Shown here one piece after another: positions 8,277 through 16,948 of a DNA stretch of 64,000 nt. The position numbers and the translations under genes are program-made. Within the stretch, counting starts at the first letter, position 1. Each line of letters begins with the position of its first letter. The stretch comes from Cryobacterium sp. PAMC25264 (lineage in GTDB: Bacteria > Actinomycetota > Actinomycetes > Actinomycetales > Microbacteriaceae): the NCBI RefSeq assembly GCF_019443325.1, contig NZ_CP080383.1:2108001-2172000 (forward strand), written 5' to 3'. The notes below the pieces were generated by a model, which searched no databases, was not told the origin of the DNA, and worked only from the letters and a program-made list of their open reading frames with translations.

Positions 8277-9005
8277 ATGGAGCAGTCGGAACGCCCAGCG
8301 GCGATCGAGGTGCGCAGCCTGCGCACCCGACGGGGCTCGCAGCAGGTCCTGCGGGGCCTGGACGTCACCGTCCCGGCCGGCCTCGTGGTGGGTTTGATAG
8401 GTCCGAGCGGGTCGGGCAAGACCACTCTGATGCGGGCCATCGTGGGGGTGCAGATCGTGGAATCCGGCACCGTGACCGTACTCGGCCGACCGGCCGGCAC
8501 CGCGACCCTGCGCCGCCTGGTGGGCTACGTGACCCAGGACGCGAGCGTCTACGACGACCTCACGGTGCGGCAGAACCTGGACTACTTCCGGGCCGTGCTG
8601 GGCGCGAGCCGCGGTGACGTGGCGCGGGTCATCGAAGCGACGGACCTGGGCGCGAATTCCGGCCGGTTGGCCGGGTCGCTCTCCGGCGGACAGCGCAGCC
8701 GGGTGTCCCTCGCGGTGGCGCTGCTCGGCTCGCCCGAACTCCTGGTGCTCGACGAGCCCACGGTGGGCCTGGACCCGGTGCTCCGCCGCGACCTGTGGGA
8801 GCTCTTCCACGGGCTCGCCGCCGCGGGGACGAGCCTGTTGGTCTCCAGCCATGTGATGGACGAGGCCGCCCGATGCGACCGGCTGCTGCTGATGCGGGAT
8901 GGCGCACTCCTGGCCGACGACACCCCGGCCGGGCTGCTCACCGCCACGGCGACCACCGACATCGAGGCGGCCTTCCTGACCCTGATCATGCGCGGGGAAC
9001 GGTGA
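8277..9005 (+). CDS. ABC-2 type exporter ATP-binding protein
   Basis: A 242-residue ATPase of the drug/lipid exporter type. It has Walker A GPSGSGKTT, Q-loop VGYVTQDASVYDDLTV, signature LSGGQRSRVSLAVAL, Walker B LLVLDEPTVGLDP and switch histidine VSSHVMDEA. It ends in TGA that overlaps the ATG of the permease gene (TGATG at 9003-9007), so the two form an exporter. The gene begins with ATG at 8277 and is divergent from lemA, with about 185 bases between. Substrate cannot be inferred; close relatives are annotated for daunorubicin-like drugs without proof. Confidence 0.92.
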   Translation: MEQSERPAAIEVRSLRTRRGSQQVLRGLDVTVPAGLVVGLIGPSGSGKTTLMRAIVGVQIVESGTVTVLGRPAGTATLRRLVGYVTQDASVYDDLTVRQNLDYFRAVLGASRGDVARVIEATDLGANSGRLAGSLSGGQRSRVSLAVALLGSPELLVLDEPTVGLDPVLRRDLWELFHGLAAAGTSLLVSSHVMDEAARCDRLLLMRDGALLADDTPAGLLTATATTDIEAAFLTLIMRGER

Positions 9006-9739
9006 TGACGCCGTCCCGCACCCTCGCGACCGCCGGTCGGGTGCTCACCCAGATCCGGCACGATCCGCGCACGATCGTGCTCCTACTGGTGGTGCCGAGC
9101 CTGTTGATCGGCCTGGTGGCCTGGATCTTTTCGGACACCCCGGTGTTCGAGTCCGTCGGGCCGGCCATGATCGCGCTGTTCCCGTTCATCGTGATGTTCC
9201 TGGTCACCAGCATCACCACCCTGAGGGAGCGGCGCACCGGCACGCTGGAGCGGCTGCTGTCGATGCCGCTCGGCCGCGGCGACTTCATCGTGGGGTACGC
9301 GCTGGCCTTCGGACTACTCGCGGTGCTGCAGTCGAGCATCGCGGGCCTCTACGCCGTGCTGGTCTGCGGGCTGACCATCTCCGGGCCGATCTGGTTGCTG
9401 CTGCTCGTCGCCGTGGCGGATGCCGTGCTGGGCACCACCCTGGGCCTGCTGGCCAGCGCGTTCGCGCGCACCGAGTTCCAGGTGGTGCAGTTCATGCCGG
9501 TGCTGGTATTCCCGCAGATCCTGCTCGGCGGGATCTTCCTGCCACGCGACCAGCTGCCGGATGTGCTGCAGTCGATCGGCGACGCCCTGCCGCTCTCGCA
9601 CGCCATCGACGCGCTCGAGGCCGTGGCCTCCGGCAGCCAGGACACCGGCTATGTGCTCGGCGAACTGCTCGTGATCCTGGGCTGGATCGTCGGCGCGGTG
9701 GTGCTGGGCTCGGTCACCCTGCGCCGCCGCACCCCCTAG
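9005..9739 (+). CDS. ABC-2 type exporter permease
   Basis: A 244-residue membrane subunit of the ABC-2 family with six hydrophobic segments. The family region FPFIVMFLVTSITTLRERRTGTLERLLSMPL is visible in pieces, and FPQILLGGIFLPRDQLPDVLQ lies before the last helices. The start ATG at 9005 overlaps the ATPase stop, so it is translationally coupled to its partner. A longer open frame upstream lies inside the ATPase gene and is rejected. It is followed at 9747 by a 61-base palindrome that may end transcription. Confidence 0.92.
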   Translation: MTPSRTLATAGRVLTQIRHDPRTIVLLLVVPSLLIGLVAWIFSDTPVFESVGPAMIALFPFIVMFLVTSITTLRERRTGTLERLLSMPLGRGDFIVGYALAFGLLAVLQSSIAGLYAVLVCGLTISGPIWLLLLVAVADAVLGTTLGLLASAFARTEFQVVQFMPVLVFPQILLGGIFLPRDQLPDVLQSIGDALPLSHAIDALEAVASGSQDTGYVLGELLVILGWIVGAVVLGSVTLRRRTP

Positions 9740-9746
9740 TCCAGTC

Positions 9747-9807
9747 CGCGAACTGTGAGTTAAGCACGCCCCCGGGCACTTTTTGGGGGCTTAAGTCACA
9801 GCTCGCG
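9747..9807. repeat. 61-base palindromic repeat, family B, copy 1 (possible bidirectional terminator)
   Basis: Outer arms CGCGAACTGTGAGTTAAGC and CTTAAGTCACAGCTCGCG enclose an inner hairpin CCCCCGGGCACTTTTTGGGGG. It fills the gap between two convergent genes, so it is placed to stop transcription from both sides. A second copy of exactly the same length, with the same outer arms but a different inner hairpin, lies at 56975-57035. Both are preceded by CAGTC. Confidence 0.8.
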
Positions 9808-9810
9808 TCA

Positions 9811-11247
9811 CTAGCGGGAGCTCAGGACGTGCTGCAGCCAGGTGTAGGACAGCTTGGGGGTGCGGGGGCGGGCTGGATCGGTGACGTCCACGTACACCAG
9901 GCCGAAGCGCTGGGTGTAGCCCGCCTCCCACTCGAAGCCGTCCAGCAGCGACCGCACCAGGTAGCCGCGCAGGTCGACGCCTTCGGCCGGCCCGCCAGGC
10001 GCCACGGCCTCAACGGCCGCGAGCAGGTGCTCGGCCAGATAGTCGATGCGGGCCAGGTCGGTGACCTCGCCGCGCACGTCGGCACGGTCGGGGAATCCGG
10101 CCCCCGCGGTGACATAGACGGGCGGCAGGGCTTCGTTGTAGCGGTCGCGCAGTTCGGTCAGGGCCACCGCGAGGTATTCCGGCGCTATGGGCACGCCGAA
10201 ACCGGTGGCCGGATGCTCGCGGAAGACCTCGGTGTGGAATGGGAGCCGGTTCAGGGCGGGGCCGGTCCCGTCCTCTCCGACCGGCCCGCGAGCTCCGGCA
10301 GCGATGCGGGTGGGCTGGGAGTAGCTCAGGCCGTAGAAGTCCAACGGCTGATGGATGGTGCGGAGGTCGTCGGGTTCGATTTCGTGCAGCATCCGCAGTT
10401 CGGTCTCGAACTCGCCGGCCGGGTCGGGGTAACGGCCGAGCAGCACGGGGTCGGCGACGAGCCGGTTCTGCAGCAGGTCGTAGAGCGTCGCGGCCGTGCG
10501 GTCGGCCTCCCGGTCGGTGGCGCTCTGCACGGGGGTGTGCGCGTTGGTGATGCCGATGCGGCCGCGCACGTCGGCGGCGCGCAGGCCCTGCACGGCGAGG
10601 CCGTGGCCGAGCAGCTGGTGGTGGGCGGCCGGCAGCGCGTCGAAGAGCAGGGTCTGCCCCGGCGCGTGCACGCCGATCGCGTACCCGTTGAACATCACGG
10701 TCGCCGGTTCGGTGAGGGTGACCCAGGCGTCGATCCGATCGCCGAACAGCTCGCCCATCTGGTAGGCGTAGTCGCCGAACCGCCAGGCGGTGTCCCGGTT
10801 CAACCACCCGCCGGCCAGGGCCAGGGGGATGTCCCAGTGCGACAGTGCGGCCATCGGGCTGATGCCGGTGCCGAGCAGCTCGTCCAGCAGGCGGTCGTAG
10901 AAGGCCACCCCGGCGCGGTGGAGCGCACCGCGTCCGTCGGGCTGCAGGCGCGGCCAGGCGAAGGAGAACCTGTAGAGGTCGGCGCCGAGTTCGCTGAGCA
11001 GCGTGACGTCGTCGCTGAGCTTGCCGATGTGGTCGGCCGACACCGACGCGTTCTGGCCGTCGAGGATGCGCCCGCCCTGCCTGGTGAAGGCGTCCCAGCT
11101 GGACTCGCCCCGGCCGCCGTCGCGGGCGCCGCCCTCGATCTGGAAGGCGGAGGACGACGCGCCGATCTGGAATCCGGTGGGCAGCCGGTCTCCCAGCTCC
11201 CCCGCCCGGTGCTGCCAGGCGCGGGACGCCGGGGTGTTACTGCTCAT
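9811..11247 (-). CDS. GH1-like protein, probably catalytically inactive
   Basis: A 478-residue protein with a full-length glycoside hydrolase family 1 barrel. Family landmarks are present: AFQIEGG (Gln36), SHWDI (His137), TLTEP with the acid/base Glu180, and GFEWEAGYTQRFGLVYVDV. The nucleophile motif, normally (V/I)TENG, reads VTAGAG, so Glu is replaced by Ala381. Other sugar-binding positions also differ: NEP is TEP, NYY is SYS (308-310), and the Trp of VWSLLDNFEW is Arg432. Hydrolysis by the normal retaining mechanism is therefore unlikely. The start ATG overlaps the stop of the upstream FAD oxidase gene (ATGA). The protein may bind a sugar, act as a scaffold, or catalyse something else. 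Confidence 0.9.
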   Translation of the reverse strand: MSSNTPASRAWQHRAGELGDRLPTGFQIGASSSAFQIEGGARDGGRGESSWDAFTRQGGRILDGQNASVSADHIGKLSDDVTLLSELGADLYRFSFAWPRLQPDGRGALHRAGVAFYDRLLDELLGTGISPMAALSHWDIPLALAGGWLNRDTAWRFGDYAYQMGELFGDRIDAWVTLTEPATVMFNGYAIGVHAPGQTLLFDALPAAHHQLLGHGLAVQGLRAADVRGRIGITNAHTPVQSATDREADRTAATLYDLLQNRLVADPVLLGRYPDPAGEFETELRMLHEIEPDDLRTIHQPLDFYGLSYSQPTRIAAGARGPVGEDGTGPALNRLPFHTEVFREHPATGFGVPIAPEYLAVALTELRDRYNEALPPVYVTAGAGFPDRADVRGEVTDLARIDYLAEHLLAAVEAVAPGGPAEGVDLRGYLVRSLLDGFEWEAGYTQRFGLVYVDVTDPARPRTPKLSYTWLQHVLSSR

Positions 11248-12554
11248 CGGCCGAGGACTCTTTCCAGGTAGCGGTTACTGAATCGACGCTCCGGATCGAG
11301 CCGGTCCCGCACAGCGAGGAAGTCGTCGAAGCGGGGGTAGACCGCGCGGAGGGCATCCGCGTCGAGGTCGTGCATCTTCCCCCAGTGTGGGCGTCCGCCG
11401 TGCGCCTGCATAATCGCCTCGACATCCGCGAAGTATTTCCCGGGGTTCTCCCGGAAGTAGCGGTGCACCGCGATGTAACCGGTGGCCCGGTCGTGAGCGG
11501 TGGAGAGCCAGATGTCGTCGGCCGCGGCGGTGCGCACCTCGAGGGGGAAGGAGATGCGCCAGCCGCGCTTCTGGATGAGGGCACGCACCTCGCGCAGCAC
11601 CTCGGACACCTGCTCCAACGGCACGGCGTATTCCATCTCGTGGAAGCGCACCGACCGGTGTGTGATGAACACCCGGTGGGAGAGATCGGTGAAGTCCCGG
11701 TGTCCCGTGAGCCGGTCCGCGAGCCGGTTGACCCTGGGCACCAGGGGTGGCACGATCACGCCGGCCGCACAGGTGGCGCGGTACACGCCGTTGGCGATCA
11801 GTTCGTCGTCGATCCAGCGGCTCACCCGGCCGAGCGGCGCCCGGCCCGCGGAGAGCGGCTGCCGGGTGTTGGTCTTGGTGAGCACCGTCTCGGTGTGCGG
11901 GAACCAGTAGAACTCGAAATGATCGGCCGCGCCGCTGCGTTCGGCGAAGGCATCCAGCACAGCCTCGAAGGGTTCGGGGGTTTCGACGGCGTGCAGCAGG
12001 AAGGCCGGCACGCACTGCACGGTGAGGTCGACGAGGATACCGAGGGCGCCCAGGCCCAACCGCACCGCCGGGAGCAACTCGGGGTTCTCGGTTTCGCTGA
12101 CGTGCACCAGTGCGCCGTCGCCGACGACGAGGGTCACCGCCACGATCTGGGCGGCCAGGCCGCGGAACCGGGAGCCGGTGCCGTGGGTGCCGGTGGAGGT
12201 GGCCCCGGCGAGGGTCTGCCGGTCGACGTCGCCCATGTTCTCCAGCGCGAGTCCGTACGGTTTCAGCAGCGCGGGTAGCTCGTGCAGGTGGGTTCCGGCG
12301 GCCAGCGTCACCCGGCCGGCGGCCTCATCGACGTGCAGCACGCCGGAGAAGGCCAGGTCGAGTTGCACTCCGGGTGCCACGGCGATGCCGGAGAAGCTGT
12401 GCCCGGCGCCCACCGCCTTGATCCGGGTGCCGGACCGGGCGGCGGCGAGCACGGCGCGTTGCACGGCACCGGTGCTGGTGGGCCGCTCCACCCGGGCCGG
12501 AACCACGGCCTGGCTGCGCGACCAGTTGCGCCACGTGGCGCCGGTGGCGGTCAC
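11244..12554 (-). CDS. FAD-dependent D-arabinono-1,4-lactone oxidase family protein
   Basis: A 436-residue flavoprotein of the vanillyl-alcohol oxidase superfamily. The N-terminal FAD-binding domain includes AVGAGHSFSGIAV, whose His52 is the residue that binds FAD covalently in sugar-lactone oxidases, and GDVDRQTLAGATSTGTHGTG. The C-terminal ALO domain carries HWGKMHDLD and ends with YPRFDDFLAVRDRLDPERRF. Relatives oxidise aldonolactones or alditols with oxygen. It overlaps the gene before it by 4 nt and the GH1-like gene after it by 4 nt, so all three proteins are probably made together. The substrate is not known. Confidence 0.9.
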   Translation of the reverse strand: MTATGATWRNWSRSQAVVPARVERPTSTGAVQRAVLAAARSGTRIKAVGAGHSFSGIAVAPGVQLDLAFSGVLHVDEAAGRVTLAAGTHLHELPALLKPYGLALENMGDVDRQTLAGATSTGTHGTGSRFRGLAAQIVAVTLVVGDGALVHVSETENPELLPAVRLGLGALGILVDLTVQCVPAFLLHAVETPEPFEAVLDAFAERSGAADHFEFYWFPHTETVLTKTNTRQPLSAGRAPLGRVSRWIDDELIANGVYRATCAAGVIVPPLVPRVNRLADRLTGHRDFTDLSHRVFITHRSVRFHEMEYAVPLEQVSEVLREVRALIQKRGWRISFPLEVRTAAADDIWLSTAHDRATGYIAVHRYFRENPGKYFADVEAIMQAHGGRPHWGKMHDLDADALRAVYPRFDDFLAVRDRLDPERRFSNRYLERVLGR

Positions 12555-13795
12555 AGGAAGGCCTTGCCTTCGCCGCGGTAGGTGGGCAACATGTCGATCA
12601 CCATACCGTTGTCGACGAGCGCGAACTCGTTGATGTGCTCGCTGAGTTCGCCGGATTTGGTGTGCCGCAGCCAGACCCGGTCGCCCACCCGCAGCCGACC
12701 GGCGGCCGAGCCGGTGACGGGCGATTGCACCTCCCCGGCCATCTCGCGCGGCACCAGGCTCAGTCCCTCCGGCCAGACCAGTCGGGGCGTGCGGTCCGCA
12801 CCGGGCGGGCCTGACGCGATCCAGCCGCCGCCGAGCAGGGTGGCGGATTCCGCGGTGGGCTTCCGCACGACGGAGAGCGCGAACGCGGCCGCCGGCGCCG
12901 GCCGGAAGCCGGAGTAGTTGTCGAACAGGTGGCCGCCGAAGAACCCGCTGCCGGCGGCGATGTCGGTCACCGAACTGTCGGCGTGGGTGCTCTCGAGCGA
13001 CCCGGTGCCGCCGCCGTTGACGAACTCCAGGTCCGCCACCTGGCGCACGGCCGCGACGGCGGCGGCGCGGCGGTCGGTGATGTCCAGGATCGACCGGTTG
13101 CGCACCCAGCCGTTCAGGCGGCCCCGCACCGGGTGACCCTCCGGCCGGTCGCCGAGCCCGGCGATCTGCGCCTCATAGGCCATCAGGCCCACCAGGTCGA
13201 AGCCGGGCCGGGACACGATAGCGACCGCCAACGCCCTGGCGTCCTCCGGGGTGTGCACGGGCGACCGCCACACGCCCAGGTGGCCGAGCACCGGTGCGTT
13301 CCAGGAGGCGTCCAGCTCGAGGCAGACGCGGATGCGTTCGCGCTCTGCCGGCGGAAGCACGGAGTCGATCACGTCGAGGTGGTCGATCGAATCGACCATC
13401 AGGGTCACCCGTCCGGCCAGGTCGGCCGACCGGCCGAGCCGCCGGATGGCGGTGAGGTCGGCGCTCGGGTAGCCGACCACGATGTCGTCGAGGGTCTCCG
13501 CCAGCCACAGGGCCTCGGCGAGGGTGTACGCCAGCACGCCGCGGTAGCCGGGCAGCGCGAGCACGGCCTCGAGCACGCCGCGCACCCGCAACGACTTGCT
13601 GGCCACCCGGATCGGCGAGCCGGCTGCGCGGCCCAGCATGTCGTGGGTGTTGTGGCGGAGCGCCCCGAGGTGCAGGGCCCCGACCGGGGTGTCGAGGCCC
13701 CGGGTGGCCTCGGTGAGGCCCGGCCAATAGCTCGCCGGGGTGAGCCACGGCGCGGCGACCGGGGCGTTCGGGTCACGGGACAGGTCCAGGCTCAT
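12551..13795 (-). CDS. amino acid deaminase/aldolase (PLP, alanine racemase-like fold)
   Basis: A 414-residue PLP enzyme with an N-terminal alanine-racemase-type barrel and a C-terminal beta domain, resembling D-threonine aldolase and D-serine dehydratase (DSD1-like). The probable PLP lysine is Lys67 in RVASKSLRV. Near the C-terminus, RVGDRVWLRHTKSGELSEHINEF matches the metal-binding H/C-type region of the family only partly. It is the second gene of the tetR-led operon, 40 bases after tetR and overlapping the oxidase gene by 4 nt. Reaction and substrate are inferred at family level only. Confidence 0.82.
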   Translation of the reverse strand: MSLDLSRDPNAPVAAPWLTPASYWPGLTEATRGLDTPVGALHLGALRHNTHDMLGRAAGSPIRVASKSLRVRGVLEAVLALPGYRGVLAYTLAEALWLAETLDDIVVGYPSADLTAIRRLGRSADLAGRVTLMVDSIDHLDVIDSVLPPAERERIRVCLELDASWNAPVLGHLGVWRSPVHTPEDARALAVAIVSRPGFDLVGLMAYEAQIAGLGDRPEGHPVRGRLNGWVRNRSILDITDRRAAAVAAVRQVADLEFVNGGGTGSLESTHADSSVTDIAAGSGFFGGHLFDNYSGFRPAPAAAFALSVVRKPTAESATLLGGGWIASGPPGADRTPRLVWPEGLSLVPREMAGEVQSPVTGSAAGRLRVGDRVWLRHTKSGELSEHINEFALVDNGMVIDMLPTYRGEGKAFL

Positions 13796-13835
13796 CGGCG
13801 TACCGCTTTCGTTCTGGTCGGGGCGCTCAGGCGGG

Positions 13836-14471
13836 TCATTGTGGGGATACTCCCGCCGGTCGGCCCAGCCCGGCGAGGGTGTCGGCGGCCAGGTCGATCA
13901 ACGCGCTCGTGGCGCGTTCATCGCGGTCGACCAGCCAGGCGATCGTGAGGCCGTCGGTGAGCGATACGAGCAGGCGGGCGAGGTCGGGAAGCGGGTGCAC
14001 CCAGTGCGTTCCGCTGCGCGCGGCGGCCGAGTCCAACGCTTCGGCGGCCAGGGCGTGGTAACGCTCATACTGCAGGCGGGCCAGGGGCTGCATCGACGGG
14101 GAGCGCAGGGCCCACTGGGTGAGCTCCAGCATCGCCTTCTCCCGGAGCGGGTCGGCCGCCAGGTGGTCGACGTAGCGCTGCAGGCCCTCGCGGAGGATCC
14201 GGCGGAGGGGTGCGGGCTCTGCCTGCCCCGCCGGGTCCGTCGGATCGGCGAGGACGGCGGCGCCCTCCTGGGCGACGACCCGGCGGATGAGTTCGGCCAT
14301 CAACTCGTCGCGACTCGCAAAGGCATAGTGGAAACTCGCCAGCGACATACCGGCCTCCGCCACGATGGCGCGTGTGGTGGCCTGGGCCACGCCGCGCTCG
14401 GCGACGACCCGCAGGGCGGCATCCACCAGGATGCTGCGCCGTTCGACAGCGGGAATCCGCGTCATCGTCAT
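13836..14471 (-). CDS. TetR/AcrR family transcriptional regulator
   Basis: A 211-residue regulator. The N-terminal helix-turn-helix is at about residues 10-55 (ILVDAALRVVAERGVAQATT, then AGMSLASFHYAFASRDELMAELIRRVV). The C-terminal ligand-binding domain is helical and not recognisable by ligand. ATG at 14471 has GAGGTGG upstream; a second ATG two codons later is possible. It is the first gene of the operon with the deaminase/aldolase, oxidase and GH1-like genes, so it probably controls its own operon in response to that pathway's substrate. The promoter and operator should lie in 14472-14650. Confidence 0.9.
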   Translation of the reverse strand: MTMTRIPAVERRSILVDAALRVVAERGVAQATTRAIVAEAGMSLASFHYAFASRDELMAELIRRVVAQEGAAVLADPTDPAGQAEPAPLRRILREGLQRYVDHLAADPLREKAMLELTQWALRSPSMQPLARLQYERYHALAAEALDSAAARSGTHWVHPLPDLARLLVSLTDGLTIAWLVDRDERATSALIDLAADTLAGLGRPAGVSPQ

Positions 14472-14654
14472 CTGACCACCTCACTGGAGCTGTCGGGAAC
14501 GTCGTCGTCCGCGGGCAGACTGCACTGGGGCAGATGACCCAGTCGACAGTATGGCGTACCGACCGCCCGGAGGGACAGATCGGCGCGAAAAACCGGCGCG
14601 GGTAACAACGCGGGTAACAAGTGGGCTGCGATCGCCCCGCGTGGGCGCGCCACA

Positions 14655-14683
14655 TTGACAATCGCGGCGCGGCCCCCTGAAAT
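14655..14683 (+). promoter_or_regulatory. candidate sigma-70 type promoter for the Ig-like membrane protein
   Basis: A perfect -35 TTGACA at 14655-14660 is followed after 17 bases by TGAAAT at 14678-14683, four of six matches to the -10 consensus. Transcription would start about 10 bases before the ATG at 14699, with GAGGGGG close to the start codon. Prediction by eye only. Confidence 0.45.
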
Positions 14684-14698
14684 AGTCTGAGGGGGTCC

Positions 14699-16948
14699 AT
14701 GATCACGTCACGCCGTTCCAGCGCGCACGGGTCGCTCGATCGATCCCGGCGGCGTGTCCGGTGCGCCCCGATGCTCTTCGTCGCGGTCCTGCTGGCTGCC
14801 CTCGTGGTGGTCCCCCTCGTCGGTGCGGTCTCGCCCGCGGCGGCTGTGACCCGGGCCGAGGTTGTCGAACCCACCGAAACGACCGAACCGACCCCGCAGG
14901 ACAGCACGACCCCCACGCCGTCCCTGGCTCCGTTGGAGTCCGACACCCCGTCTCCCAGTCCAGCGCCCGCCGCACCGACCATCGACAGCCCCGCGCCGGG
15001 TAGCTTCGTGGGCGGCAGCGTCAGCGTCGGCGGCAGCCGCGACCCGGGCCAGAAGATCCAACTGCTCTCGCCCAACGGCGGCGACCCGCTGTGCTTGATC
15101 GAGCCGGACGGCAGCTCCACCTGGCAGTGCGGCGTCCGGCTGCCGAGCGGACCCGATGTGACGTTGCGGGCCGTCGTCGAGGGCGACTCCGGTCTCGCCG
15201 CGACCATCTCGGTGCGGGTGCTGCAGCCGCCGACCGTCACGGGCGGGCCCACCGGAACGTCCTCCTCGAACGGCCTCGTGCGCGGCACCGGCTACCCGGG
15301 AGCCACCGTCACGGCCGTCCTCGCCAGCGGCCAGAGCTGCACCTTCACCGTCGACGGATCCGGCGCCTGGGCCTGCCTGATGCAGGGGCTGGTCAGCGGG
15401 CCCGAACAGATCACGGCGTCGCAGCAGACCGGCTTCAGCGCCCCCGATTCCTCCCCGGCCAGCGATCCGGTCACGCTGCAATTCGACGTCGACGCCCCGG
15501 CTCCGCCCACCGTCGTGGGCCCGGCGGGCGGCTCTACGGTGCCGTCAGGTGCGCCCTACTTCGGCCAGGGCGAGAACGGCGCTACCGTGACGGTCTTCGC
15601 GGGCGCCTACTCCCTCTGCAGCAGCGTCGTCTCCGGCGGTACCTGGTCGTGCACCGAGTCCGGGTCCGGTGTCGCCGACGGCTCCTACGATCTGCGCGCC
15701 GTGCAGCAGGATGCCGCGGGCAATGTCAGCGCCGGAATCGCCCCGATCCGGGTCAGTTACGGCACGGCCCCGGTCACTCCCACTCCCCCGGCCGAGACCG
15801 TGCCCGCCCCGACCACGGCGCCGCAGCCGACGACGGCCCCCACCCCGGCGCCCACGGACTCGCCGACGCCGACGCCGGCCCCGGCGGTGCCGCCGGGCAC
15901 TCCGTCGGCCACCCCGCTTCCGGTTCCCAGCACGCCCGACGACGAGGCGGGCGAGCTCCCACCCACCCTCACCGTGCCCGGCGGCTGGAACGACCCCACC
16001 CAGTTCAGCACCGCGGTCATCCCACCCTGGACCGTCGCGAGCTTCCCGTGGTTGCAGGCTGGGCTCCTCACCCTGGGCGCGCTGCTGCTCCTCGTGGTGC
16101 CGGCGCGCCTGCTGGCCGGCACGGTGTCACGGGCGCGGAACGGACGCCCGCTCTTCCAAACCCACCGGTTCGCCGGGCGCAACCGGGCCAGGGAGGAATT
16201 CGAGGTGGCCCCGACCGTGCGGGTGAACCGGTGGGTCGGTGTGGGTGCCGCCATCGCGGCCGCCGCGGTGTTCGTGCTGCTGTCCGGCCCGGTGGCCGCG
16301 ACCCCGTCGTACCTGCGTCTGCTGCTCGCCGTGGCCCTGGCGCTGGCCGTGGTGAATGCCGCGGCCGCGCTGGTGCCGCAGTGGTGGGGAGCGCGCGCCC
16401 TGCACGTCGATGTGGCCCTGACGATCCTGCCGCGTTACCTCGCCGTGATCGCCGTCACCGCCGTCGCGTCCCGGCTTCTCGACCTGCACCCCGCACTGCT
16501 GTTCGGTCTGCTGGGCAGCGTGGTCGTGCGCTCAGGACCGGTGTTGGCCCAGCGCGGCCAGCTCGCCGCCATGCGAGCCGGAACCCTGCTGGTGCTCGGC
16601 CTGGTGGCCCTGCTCGTGGTGGGCGTGCTGCCGGAACCCGGCGGTTTCATCGGCACCCTGGCGGCCGAGTTCGCCAACACCGTGGTGCTCGTGTCGATCG
16701 GCTCGGCCGTCCTGGTGCTCATCCCGCTGGGCAGCACGAGCGGGCGCAGCATCCTGGCCTGGTCGCCGCCGATCTGGGCGGCCCTGACGGTGCCGGCCTG
16801 GCTGGCCCTGTCCACCTTGCTCTCGCCCTGGCTCTCGCTCTGGCAGGGCGAAGGGCCGACGGTGCTGATCTGGCTCGCGCTGGCGTTCGCTGTGCTGAGC
16901 GTGACCGCGTGGGCCTGGCAGCGGTTCGTGCTGCCGGCGCTGCGCTGA
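14699..16948 (+). CDS. large membrane protein with three Ig-like modules and a polytopic C-terminus
   Basis: A 749-residue protein I do not recognise by name. A signal or anchor helix lies at residues 24-44, then a Pro/Thr-rich stretch (55-95). Three Ig-like modules follow (about 97-177, 180-265, 270-355), each with a Cys pair spaced 11-12 apart (132/144, 214/226, 307/318), which suggests disulfides outside the cell. A second Pro/Thr-rich linker (357-412) leads to a C-terminal half with about ten hydrophobic helices from residue 450 to the end and a basic cytoplasmic loop near 475-505. It could be a cell-surface adhesin or sensor embedded by its C-terminus. Domain limits are estimates. Confidence 0.85.
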   Translation: MITSRRSSAHGSLDRSRRRVRCAPMLFVAVLLAALVVVPLVGAVSPAAAVTRAEVVEPTETTEPTPQDSTTPTPSLAPLESDTPSPSPAPAAPTIDSPAPGSFVGGSVSVGGSRDPGQKIQLLSPNGGDPLCLIEPDGSSTWQCGVRLPSGPDVTLRAVVEGDSGLAATISVRVLQPPTVTGGPTGTSSSNGLVRGTGYPGATVTAVLASGQSCTFTVDGSGAWACLMQGLVSGPEQITASQQTGFSAPDSSPASDPVTLQFDVDAPAPPTVVGPAGGSTVPSGAPYFGQGENGATVTVFAGAYSLCSSVVSGGTWSCTESGSGVADGSYDLRAVQQDAAGNVSAGIAPIRVSYGTAPVTPTPPAETVPAPTTAPQPTTAPTPAPTDSPTPTPAPAVPPGTPSATPLPVPSTPDDEAGELPPTLTVPGGWNDPTQFSTAVIPPWTVASFPWLQAGLLTLGALLLLVVPARLLAGTVSRARNGRPLFQTHRFAGRNRAREEFEVAPTVRVNRWVGVGAAIAAAAVFVLLSGPVAATPSYLRLLLAVALALAVVNAAAALVPQWWGARALHVDVALTILPRYLAVIAVTAVASRLLDLHPALLFGLLGSVVVRSGPVLAQRGQLAAMRAGTLLVLGLVALLVVGVLPEPGGFIGTLAAEFANTVVLVSIGSAVLVLIPLGSTSGRSILAWSPPIWAALTVPAWLALSTLLSPWLSLWQGEGPTVLIWLALAFAVLSVTAWAWQRFVLPALR

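Follow-up and report, generated by a model that had tools for sequence, protein, structure and literature searches.

A GH1-fold protein of Cryobacterium without its catalytic nucleophile, retained under purifying selection

Pseudoenzymes are usually explained by gene duplication, in which one copy works and the other is free to change. The pseudoenzymes of pectin degradation in beetles belong to family GH28. According to the accessible part of the source, they are catalytically dead plant cell wall-degrading enzymes that have been retained, and their rise is tied to gene duplication (PMC6549527); they differ from the case described here in enzyme family and in that origin, whereas in Cryobacterium the orthologue itself has been converted. 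In the GH1-like domains of beta-klotho, one of the two catalytic Glu residues is replaced in each domain, and the accessible text judges them catalytically inactive (PMC10229096). What beta-klotho shares with our protein is limited to the missing Glu and the fold: beta-klotho is an animal tandem-domain cell-surface receptor for FGF hormones, whereas the bacterial protein has a single domain and is encoded by the positional orthologue of an active-enzyme gene. For the related enzyme HoBGLA, whose structure is solved, the portion of the paper at hand reports that Gln20, His121, Asn165, Glu354 and Trp409 hydrogen-bond the sugar, that Glu408 holds O4, that Trp401 stacks, and that the E354Q variant has no detectable activity on cellobiose or lactose (PMC4322223). 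A Cryobacterium species paper mentions beta-glucosidase-positive strains, and its available part is uninformative on the gene studied here (PMC10067761). Searches of one open-access library, within the terms used, found no report of a bacterial GH1 pseudoenzyme. GH1-fold domains judged inactive are already known in animals (PMC10229096, available part); the new element is the recurrent conversion of a positional orthologue.

The gene lies in a 64,000-nucleotide stretch of DNA from Cryobacterium sp. PAMC25264 (hereafter the window). Its frame is open over 478 codons with no stop, unlike the disrupted frame of a pseudogene, and its product matches the Pfam GH1 model (PF00232) with 377 bits against a cut-off of 22.6, over model positions 3 to 449 of 453, which places it in the family. 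The preliminary description, made from the sequence alone, had called the gene full-length and uninterrupted, which is borne out, and had suggested a structure prediction; this yields an intact, complete GH1 barrel (mean pLDDT 93.6). The best match in both sequence and structure is the GH1 beta-glucosidase Cba3 of Cellulomonas biazotea (PDB 8znv, 8znw), at 48% identity and with TM scores of 0.85 (query) and 0.95 (target). The two proteins align with the same Gln/His/Glu/Trp glycone residues, whereas Cba3 has TENG, NEP, NYY and LLDNFEW where the window protein has TAGAG, TEP, SYS and LLDGFEW. Against TIGR03356, the NCBIfam equivalog model for GH1 family beta-glucosidases, the window protein scores 406.3 bits, below the curated cut-off of 478.5, which is no clean divider because, of four Glu-bearing relatives scanned, two lie below it as well (P0003, 469; P0104, 478.0) and two above (P0110, 481.5; P0044, 507). 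A signal sequence was absent by eye, and the protein is probably cytosolic.

The window frame reads ...PVYVTAGAGFPD..., with Ala381 encoded by GCG at 10105-10107, and its nucleophile loop holds neither Glu nor Asp where active GH1 enzymes have (I/V)TE(N/G). The preliminary description had read this as Ala in place of the nucleophile; the loss is confirmed, but a plain Glu-to-Ala swap does not describe it, because the loop lacks one codon relative to Glu-bearing orthologues. The closest of these, L024, has T-E-G-G-A-S-F-P (ACC GAG GGC GGC GCC AGC TTC CCC) where the window has T-A-G-A-G-F-P (ACC GCG GGG GCC GGA TTC CCC), and relatives such as P0005 have T-G-G-A-G. Two paths account for this equally well: deletion of the Glu codon followed by a Gly-to-Ala change, or a Glu-to-Ala change with loss of one Gly. 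A sequencing error is very unlikely, because the nearest orthologues, L022 and L023, which are 96-97% identical and come from other genomes, share the loop. The remaining active-site residues described earlier hold in the translation: Glu180 is kept in T179-E180-P181 (for NEP), S308-Y309-S310 stands for NYY and R432 for Trp, and Q36, H137 and W440 are retained, as are E439 and Tyr309. The Asn-to-Gly change at 437 is an addition to that list. The HoBGLA roles reported in the accessible part of PMC4322223 (including that of Glu166) were transferred by alignment to Q36, H137, T179, the A381 loop, W440, E439 and R432 (Table 1).

Table 1. Positions of the genes and active-site residues discussed, numbered in the window.
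Feature	Position	Strand	Basis or remark
GH1-fold protein without catalytic nucleophile, 478 aa	9811..11247	(-)	Pfam match, predicted barrel, Cba3 match
Nucleophile loop VTAGAG, residues 379-384	10096..10113	(-)	one residue shorter than Glu-bearing orthologues
Gln36, kept, putatively sugar-holding	11140..11142	(-)	role from PMC4322223 (accessible part), transferred by alignment
His137, kept, putatively sugar-holding	10837..10839	(-)	role from PMC4322223 (accessible part), transferred by alignment
Thr179-Glu180: acid/base Glu kept, Asn before it lost	10708..10713	(-)	alignment with relatives
Ser308-Tyr309-Ser310 instead of Asn-Tyr-Tyr	10318..10326	(-)	alignment with relatives
Arg432 instead of sugar-stacking Trp	9952..9954	(-)	alignment; role from PMC4322223 (accessible part)
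Gly437 instead of Asn (LLDNFEW to LLDGFEW)	9937..9939	(-)	all five Glu-less groups have G, S or A here
Glu439-Trp440, kept pair, putatively sugar-holding	9928..9933	(-)	role from PMC4322223 (accessible part), transferred by alignment
ALO-family FAD oxidase (TIGR01679)	11244..12554	(-)	4-base overlap (ATGA) with GH1 start
Aldolase/racemase-like protein (PF01168)	12551..13795	(-)	weak D-threonine aldolase likeness, E 0.00018
TetR-family regulator, head of gene row	13836..14471	(-)	profile matches
ABC-2 type permease gene past the GH1 3' end	8795..9739	(+)	start codon of the listed ORF uncertain

The row TetR - aldolase-like - FAD oxidase - GH1 is common across Microbacteriaceae: oxidase and aldolase are both present in 22 of the 25 loci from other genera, whose GH1 proteins are 47-62% identical to the window protein. 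The Glu-bearing orthologues of the family (most of L077-L093, and L024) mostly have the same row with the same 4-base oxidase overlap and are 56-84% identical, but differ in that the catalytic set is present. On the other side, 41 of 55 Cryobacterium loci contain a homologue of the ABC-2 permease gene, a flanking gene that supports an orthologous position of GH1 within the genus. The solved relatives of the row's oxidase and aldolase-like enzymes are distant, and a scan of 9600-14800 for promoters and terminators found none. Upstream, 14699-16948 (+) encodes a protein of 749 aa, part of which is Ig-like (on weak Pfam matches) and in which membrane stretches were recognised by eye; its gene is a conserved divergent neighbour in Cryobacterium and adjoins GH1 itself where the row has been lost. 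In L026 the oxidase match falls into two overlapping pieces, as if frameshifted in that one genome, and the GH1 gene is full length.

Other GH1 genes with ENG-type motifs were surveyed in the window's genome and comprise L106 (TENG), L104 (VENG) and L105 (TENG). The last of these (C1:3998006-3999384), with NEP and TENG, is split over two frames by a frameshift or an assembly error. Because the Glu-less gene is itself the positional orthologue, release of a spare copy by an active one does not describe the usual situation here.

Of 57 Cryobacterium genomes, 55 have an orthologue at E <= 1e-100, and the frame is full length in 52 of these 55 loci; the exceptions, two cut by contig ends (L072, L073) and one frameshifted (L075, from a genome 83% complete in which the aldolase gene is broken too), were excluded from trees and site counts. 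The loop is readable in 52 loci, of which 47 lack the Glu and five keep it (L024, L033, L040, L041, L050). The preliminary description had asked whether orthologues in the same context share the Ala: within Cryobacterium they largely share the absence of Glu, and Ala itself is found in 21 of the 47, next to Leu in 17, Val in three, Ser in three, Thr in two and Gly in one, letters that depend on gap placement wherever the loop is shorter. For other genera, in a sample of 159 Microbacteriaceae genomes, drawn evenly and including three from Cryobacterium, 36 have a match at E <= 1e-120, spread over 21 of 78 genera; this threshold admits some paralogues, e.g. L102 and L103. The loci compared came from 27 of the 33 matching genomes outside the genus (L077-L103), which gave 25 loci after L102 and L103 were assigned to the outgroup as paralogues; left out were the contig-cut G168 and the low-scoring G119, G114, G097, G206 and G160. 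Glu is absent in four of the 25 (L094, L095, L100, L101), and 20 have both the Glu and the two neighbour genes. Among the window protein and the best 120 of 5837 database matches, Glu is absent in 77 of 121 (P0031, with TEV, being counted among the 44 with Glu), a figure that is no family-wide rate because the 120 are the top of the matches. In this group, the database name beta-glucosidase may be wrong for many entries.

We mapped the Glu/no-Glu state on a maximum-likelihood tree of 80 rows in which the loop and 14 active-site columns were masked. The state changes six times (5-6 over bootstraps, at least four being forced by well-supported branches), of the five Glu-less groups two belong to other genera, and Glu-less clades reach 23 genomes. 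The count itself is directionless; the direction is probably loss, since the Glu-less groups sit among Glu-bearing rows and the outgroup carries Glu, which gives several independent losses. Constraining the Glu-less Cryobacterium rows, 47 in all, to one clade lowers the log-likelihood by 93.7 units (p-AU 5.6e-15), which rejects a single ancestral loss within the genus, with the caveat that the constrained group was named with hindsight. Three orthologues with both catalytic Glu residues (L033, L040, L050) already carry Y310 to S or R, W432 to R and N437 to G, and from their sequences are plausible intermediates toward loss. Intact-Glu orthologues in the same context, which in the preliminary description would have pointed to one decaying copy, do exist (five in Cryobacterium and the 20 of 25 elsewhere); they show no such thing, because the Glu-less state is that of the genus majority and of several separate clades. 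Retention in 55 of 57 genomes, the dN/dS values below and the multiple state changes reject a single decaying copy.

The Glu-less GH1 copies are under purifying selection. Pairwise Nei-Gojobori dN/dS, which is rough in this high-GC, partly saturated DNA and whose pairs are not independent, was taken only from pairs with dS of 0.05-0.7, and gave medians of 0.138 in the window clade (A; 3 pairs), 0.263 in the second Glu-less clade (B; 28 pairs) and 0.159 in the remaining Glu-less Cryobacterium (C; 235 pairs), with 0.136 in the group-C subset from genomes without the oxidase gene (124 pairs). The Glu-bearing set gave 0.498 (81 pairs), probably inflated by saturation. A safer figure is the ratio of GH1 to oxidase dN/dS over the same genome pairs, which was 1.46 in A (3 pairs), 0.99 in B (28 pairs), 0.82 in C (87 pairs) and 0.99 in the Glu-bearing set (78 pairs); the value for A, from its three pairs, hints at slight relaxation in the window clade. 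The window gene differs from L023 by 24 nonsynonymous changes where 202 would be expected under neutrality (dN/dS 0.121), and from L022 by 17.5 where 127 would be expected (0.139), unlike the neutral evolution of a pseudogene. Loss of a catalytic residue is here combined with purifying selection, as in a functional pseudoenzyme.

The GH1 gene is also retained without its neighbours. A whole-genome search at E <= 1e-60 found the aldolase in 32 and the oxidase in 39 of 57 Cryobacterium genomes, one of the 39 being a 55%-identical copy (G043) in a genome without a GH1 orthologue. Of the 47 Glu-less Cryobacterium loci, 24 have both genes, six the oxidase only and 17 neither, while all five Glu-keeping loci and the three without a readable loop have both. 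A homologue of the divergent gene at 14699-16948 accompanies all 17 row-less loci and lies just upstream of GH1 in all 12 layouts examined, and the predicted fold is intact in one row-less Glu-less member as well (pLDDT 87.3). The survival of the Glu-less GH1 gene after the pathway genes are gone, seen in 17 genomes, speaks for an independent function. The same 17 genomes, with no oxidase or aldolase match at E <= 1e-60, reject, as a general account, that GH1 is kept merely by being locked in an operon with the oxidase.

We then compared which residues were released and which were kept. In the 23 canonical rows, 191 sites are at least 90% conserved, and 119 of them deviate in none of the five Glu-less groups, a group being scored as deviating when at least half its rows had changed (two of the five have two rows each). 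Seven sites deviate in all five groups: N179, V236, F256, N308, Y310, E381 and N437. Changes counted on the tree were 23 for Y310, 19 for N179, 18 for N308, 14 for E381, 10 for E180 and 7 for R93, against a median of 2 over conserved sites; Q36, Y309 and W440 have none and H137 and E439 one each (to Gln in L074 and to Asp in L100, respectively). For sites picked from prior GH1 knowledge, a rank test against the other conserved sites gave p = 8e-5 for the six released sites and p = 0.04 for the four glycone residues (Q36, H137, E439 and W440). W138 is intermediate (5 changes), and V236 (21), W352 (20), F350 (19) and H260 (18) are also strongly released. We take F350 and W352 to lie on the aglycone side, and presume functional roles for R93, N308, Y310 and F448 from general GH1 knowledge; V236, H260 and P325 are strongly released conserved sites with no known catalytic role. 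With the HoBGLA roles mapped onto the alignment, the released set lies mainly around the anomeric carbon and the kept set around the rest of the sugar. The Gln/His/Glu/Trp set is intact in 67 of the 77 Glu-less database sequences, and some metagenomic relatives lose Gln36 and/or His137, so sugar binding need not be universal.

These results favour a reading to which we give a probability of about three in four or somewhat more, namely that the Cryobacterium protein is a GH1 that no longer hydrolyses and that selection maintains for a different role. It would be the orthologue of a Microbacteriaceae beta-glucosidase that usually ends the TetR - aldolase-like - FAD-oxidase - GH1 row. By analogy with the E354Q variant of HoBGLA (PMC4322223, accessible part), glycoside hydrolysis would be lost in the window protein. 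The earlier characterisation as a selected pseudoenzyme rather than a decaying gene is supported by the retention, the full-length frames, the oxidase-like dN/dS, the several losses and the residue split. The likeliest non-hydrolytic role would be holding a single sugar unit, with the pocket wall away from the anomeric carbon kept and the catalytic machinery and the residues placed on the aglycone side released. That sugar binding is the selected function is a guess that we hold at somewhat under even odds; such a binder might work in sensing, in allosteric control of a partner or in scaffolding, and any partner would be conjectural. Bolder, and in our view doubtful, is the proposal that cytosolic monosaccharide receptors were made several times in parallel from one orthologous beta-glucosidase by shedding anomeric and aglycone-side residues and keeping the sugar-gripping wall, a bacterial single-copy counterpart of Klotho in which binding without cutting was favoured. 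What sets the case apart from duplication is that the positional orthologue itself was converted, repeatedly and in close species; Glu-bearing sisters and apparent intermediates are extant, and therefore the order of losses and the new function can be tested with natural variants.

Possible, but on balance unlikely, is that the dead hydrolase is kept as a structural or regulatory scaffold, with a partner binding its surface and the pocket residues serving folding only. The 47 Glu-less Cryobacterium rows share 153 invariant sites, and an N-terminal helix motif, RxWxHRxxELG (residues 9-20), is near-invariant in them and variable in most other genera; the GH1-like domains of beta-klotho are a precedent for protein binding by this fold (PMC10229096, available part), and E439, W440 and Q36 could be kept for folding instead of for sugar. 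However, the motif predates the loss of Glu, because it is largely present in Glu-keeping Cryobacterium too, the obvious partners, oxidase and aldolase, are absent from the 17 genomes, and retention of the glycone residues stands out against other conserved sites, though only at p = 0.04. In L050 the motif is partly repeated.

We consider it quite improbable that catalysis was altered, with phosphate or another outside nucleophile attacking in the space vacated by Glu and Glu180 acting as the acid. Engineered nucleophile mutants of retaining glycosidases do turn over when a nucleophile or donor is supplied from outside, many of the database homologues have small Gly/Ala-rich replacement loops, and the window protein keeps both Glu180 and R93. 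Against this, the acid/base position itself varies: of the 47 Glu-less Cryobacterium rows, 25 have E, 20 have D, one has S and one has Q. No new shared residue appears at the catalytic-centre positions, where a new chemistry should fix some. A search across the five Glu-less groups also found no newly shared carboxylate, i.e., none confined to and common to all of them, in place of the lost Glu. On these three grounds altered chemistry is unlikely.

Decay in progress, by which a redundant beta-glucosidase is under relaxed selection, is highly improbable. Several active-site residues were lost together, the genome holds the other GH1 genes with ENG-type motifs, and the window clade has the raised ratio to the oxidase (three pairs), but the frames are full length in 52 of 55 loci, dN/dS is well under 1, and the losses are old, in clades of up to 23 genomes. 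An ordinary active beta-glucosidase with a different carboxylate as nucleophile is scarcely credible: the Pfam and NCBIfam models match, and several carboxylates are near-fixed in Glu-less Cryobacterium and variable in other genera (e.g., D390, nine residues past the lost Glu), but most of them, among them D390, occur just as much in the five Cryobacterium copies that keep Glu, one Glu-less database sequence (P0034) has Asp at the nucleophile position itself, and the NCBIfam score is below its cut-off, though so are those of two of the four Glu-bearing relatives.

The GH1 protein of L074 (549 aa), like the genes of L072, L073 and L075, carries a Gly/Pro/Arg-rich, collagen-like insertion of about 65 residues near residue 320, a site that we read as near the pocket mouth. 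The contigs of L072 and L073 end within the insertion, and L075 has an insertion of about 220 bases at the same site and a broken frame.
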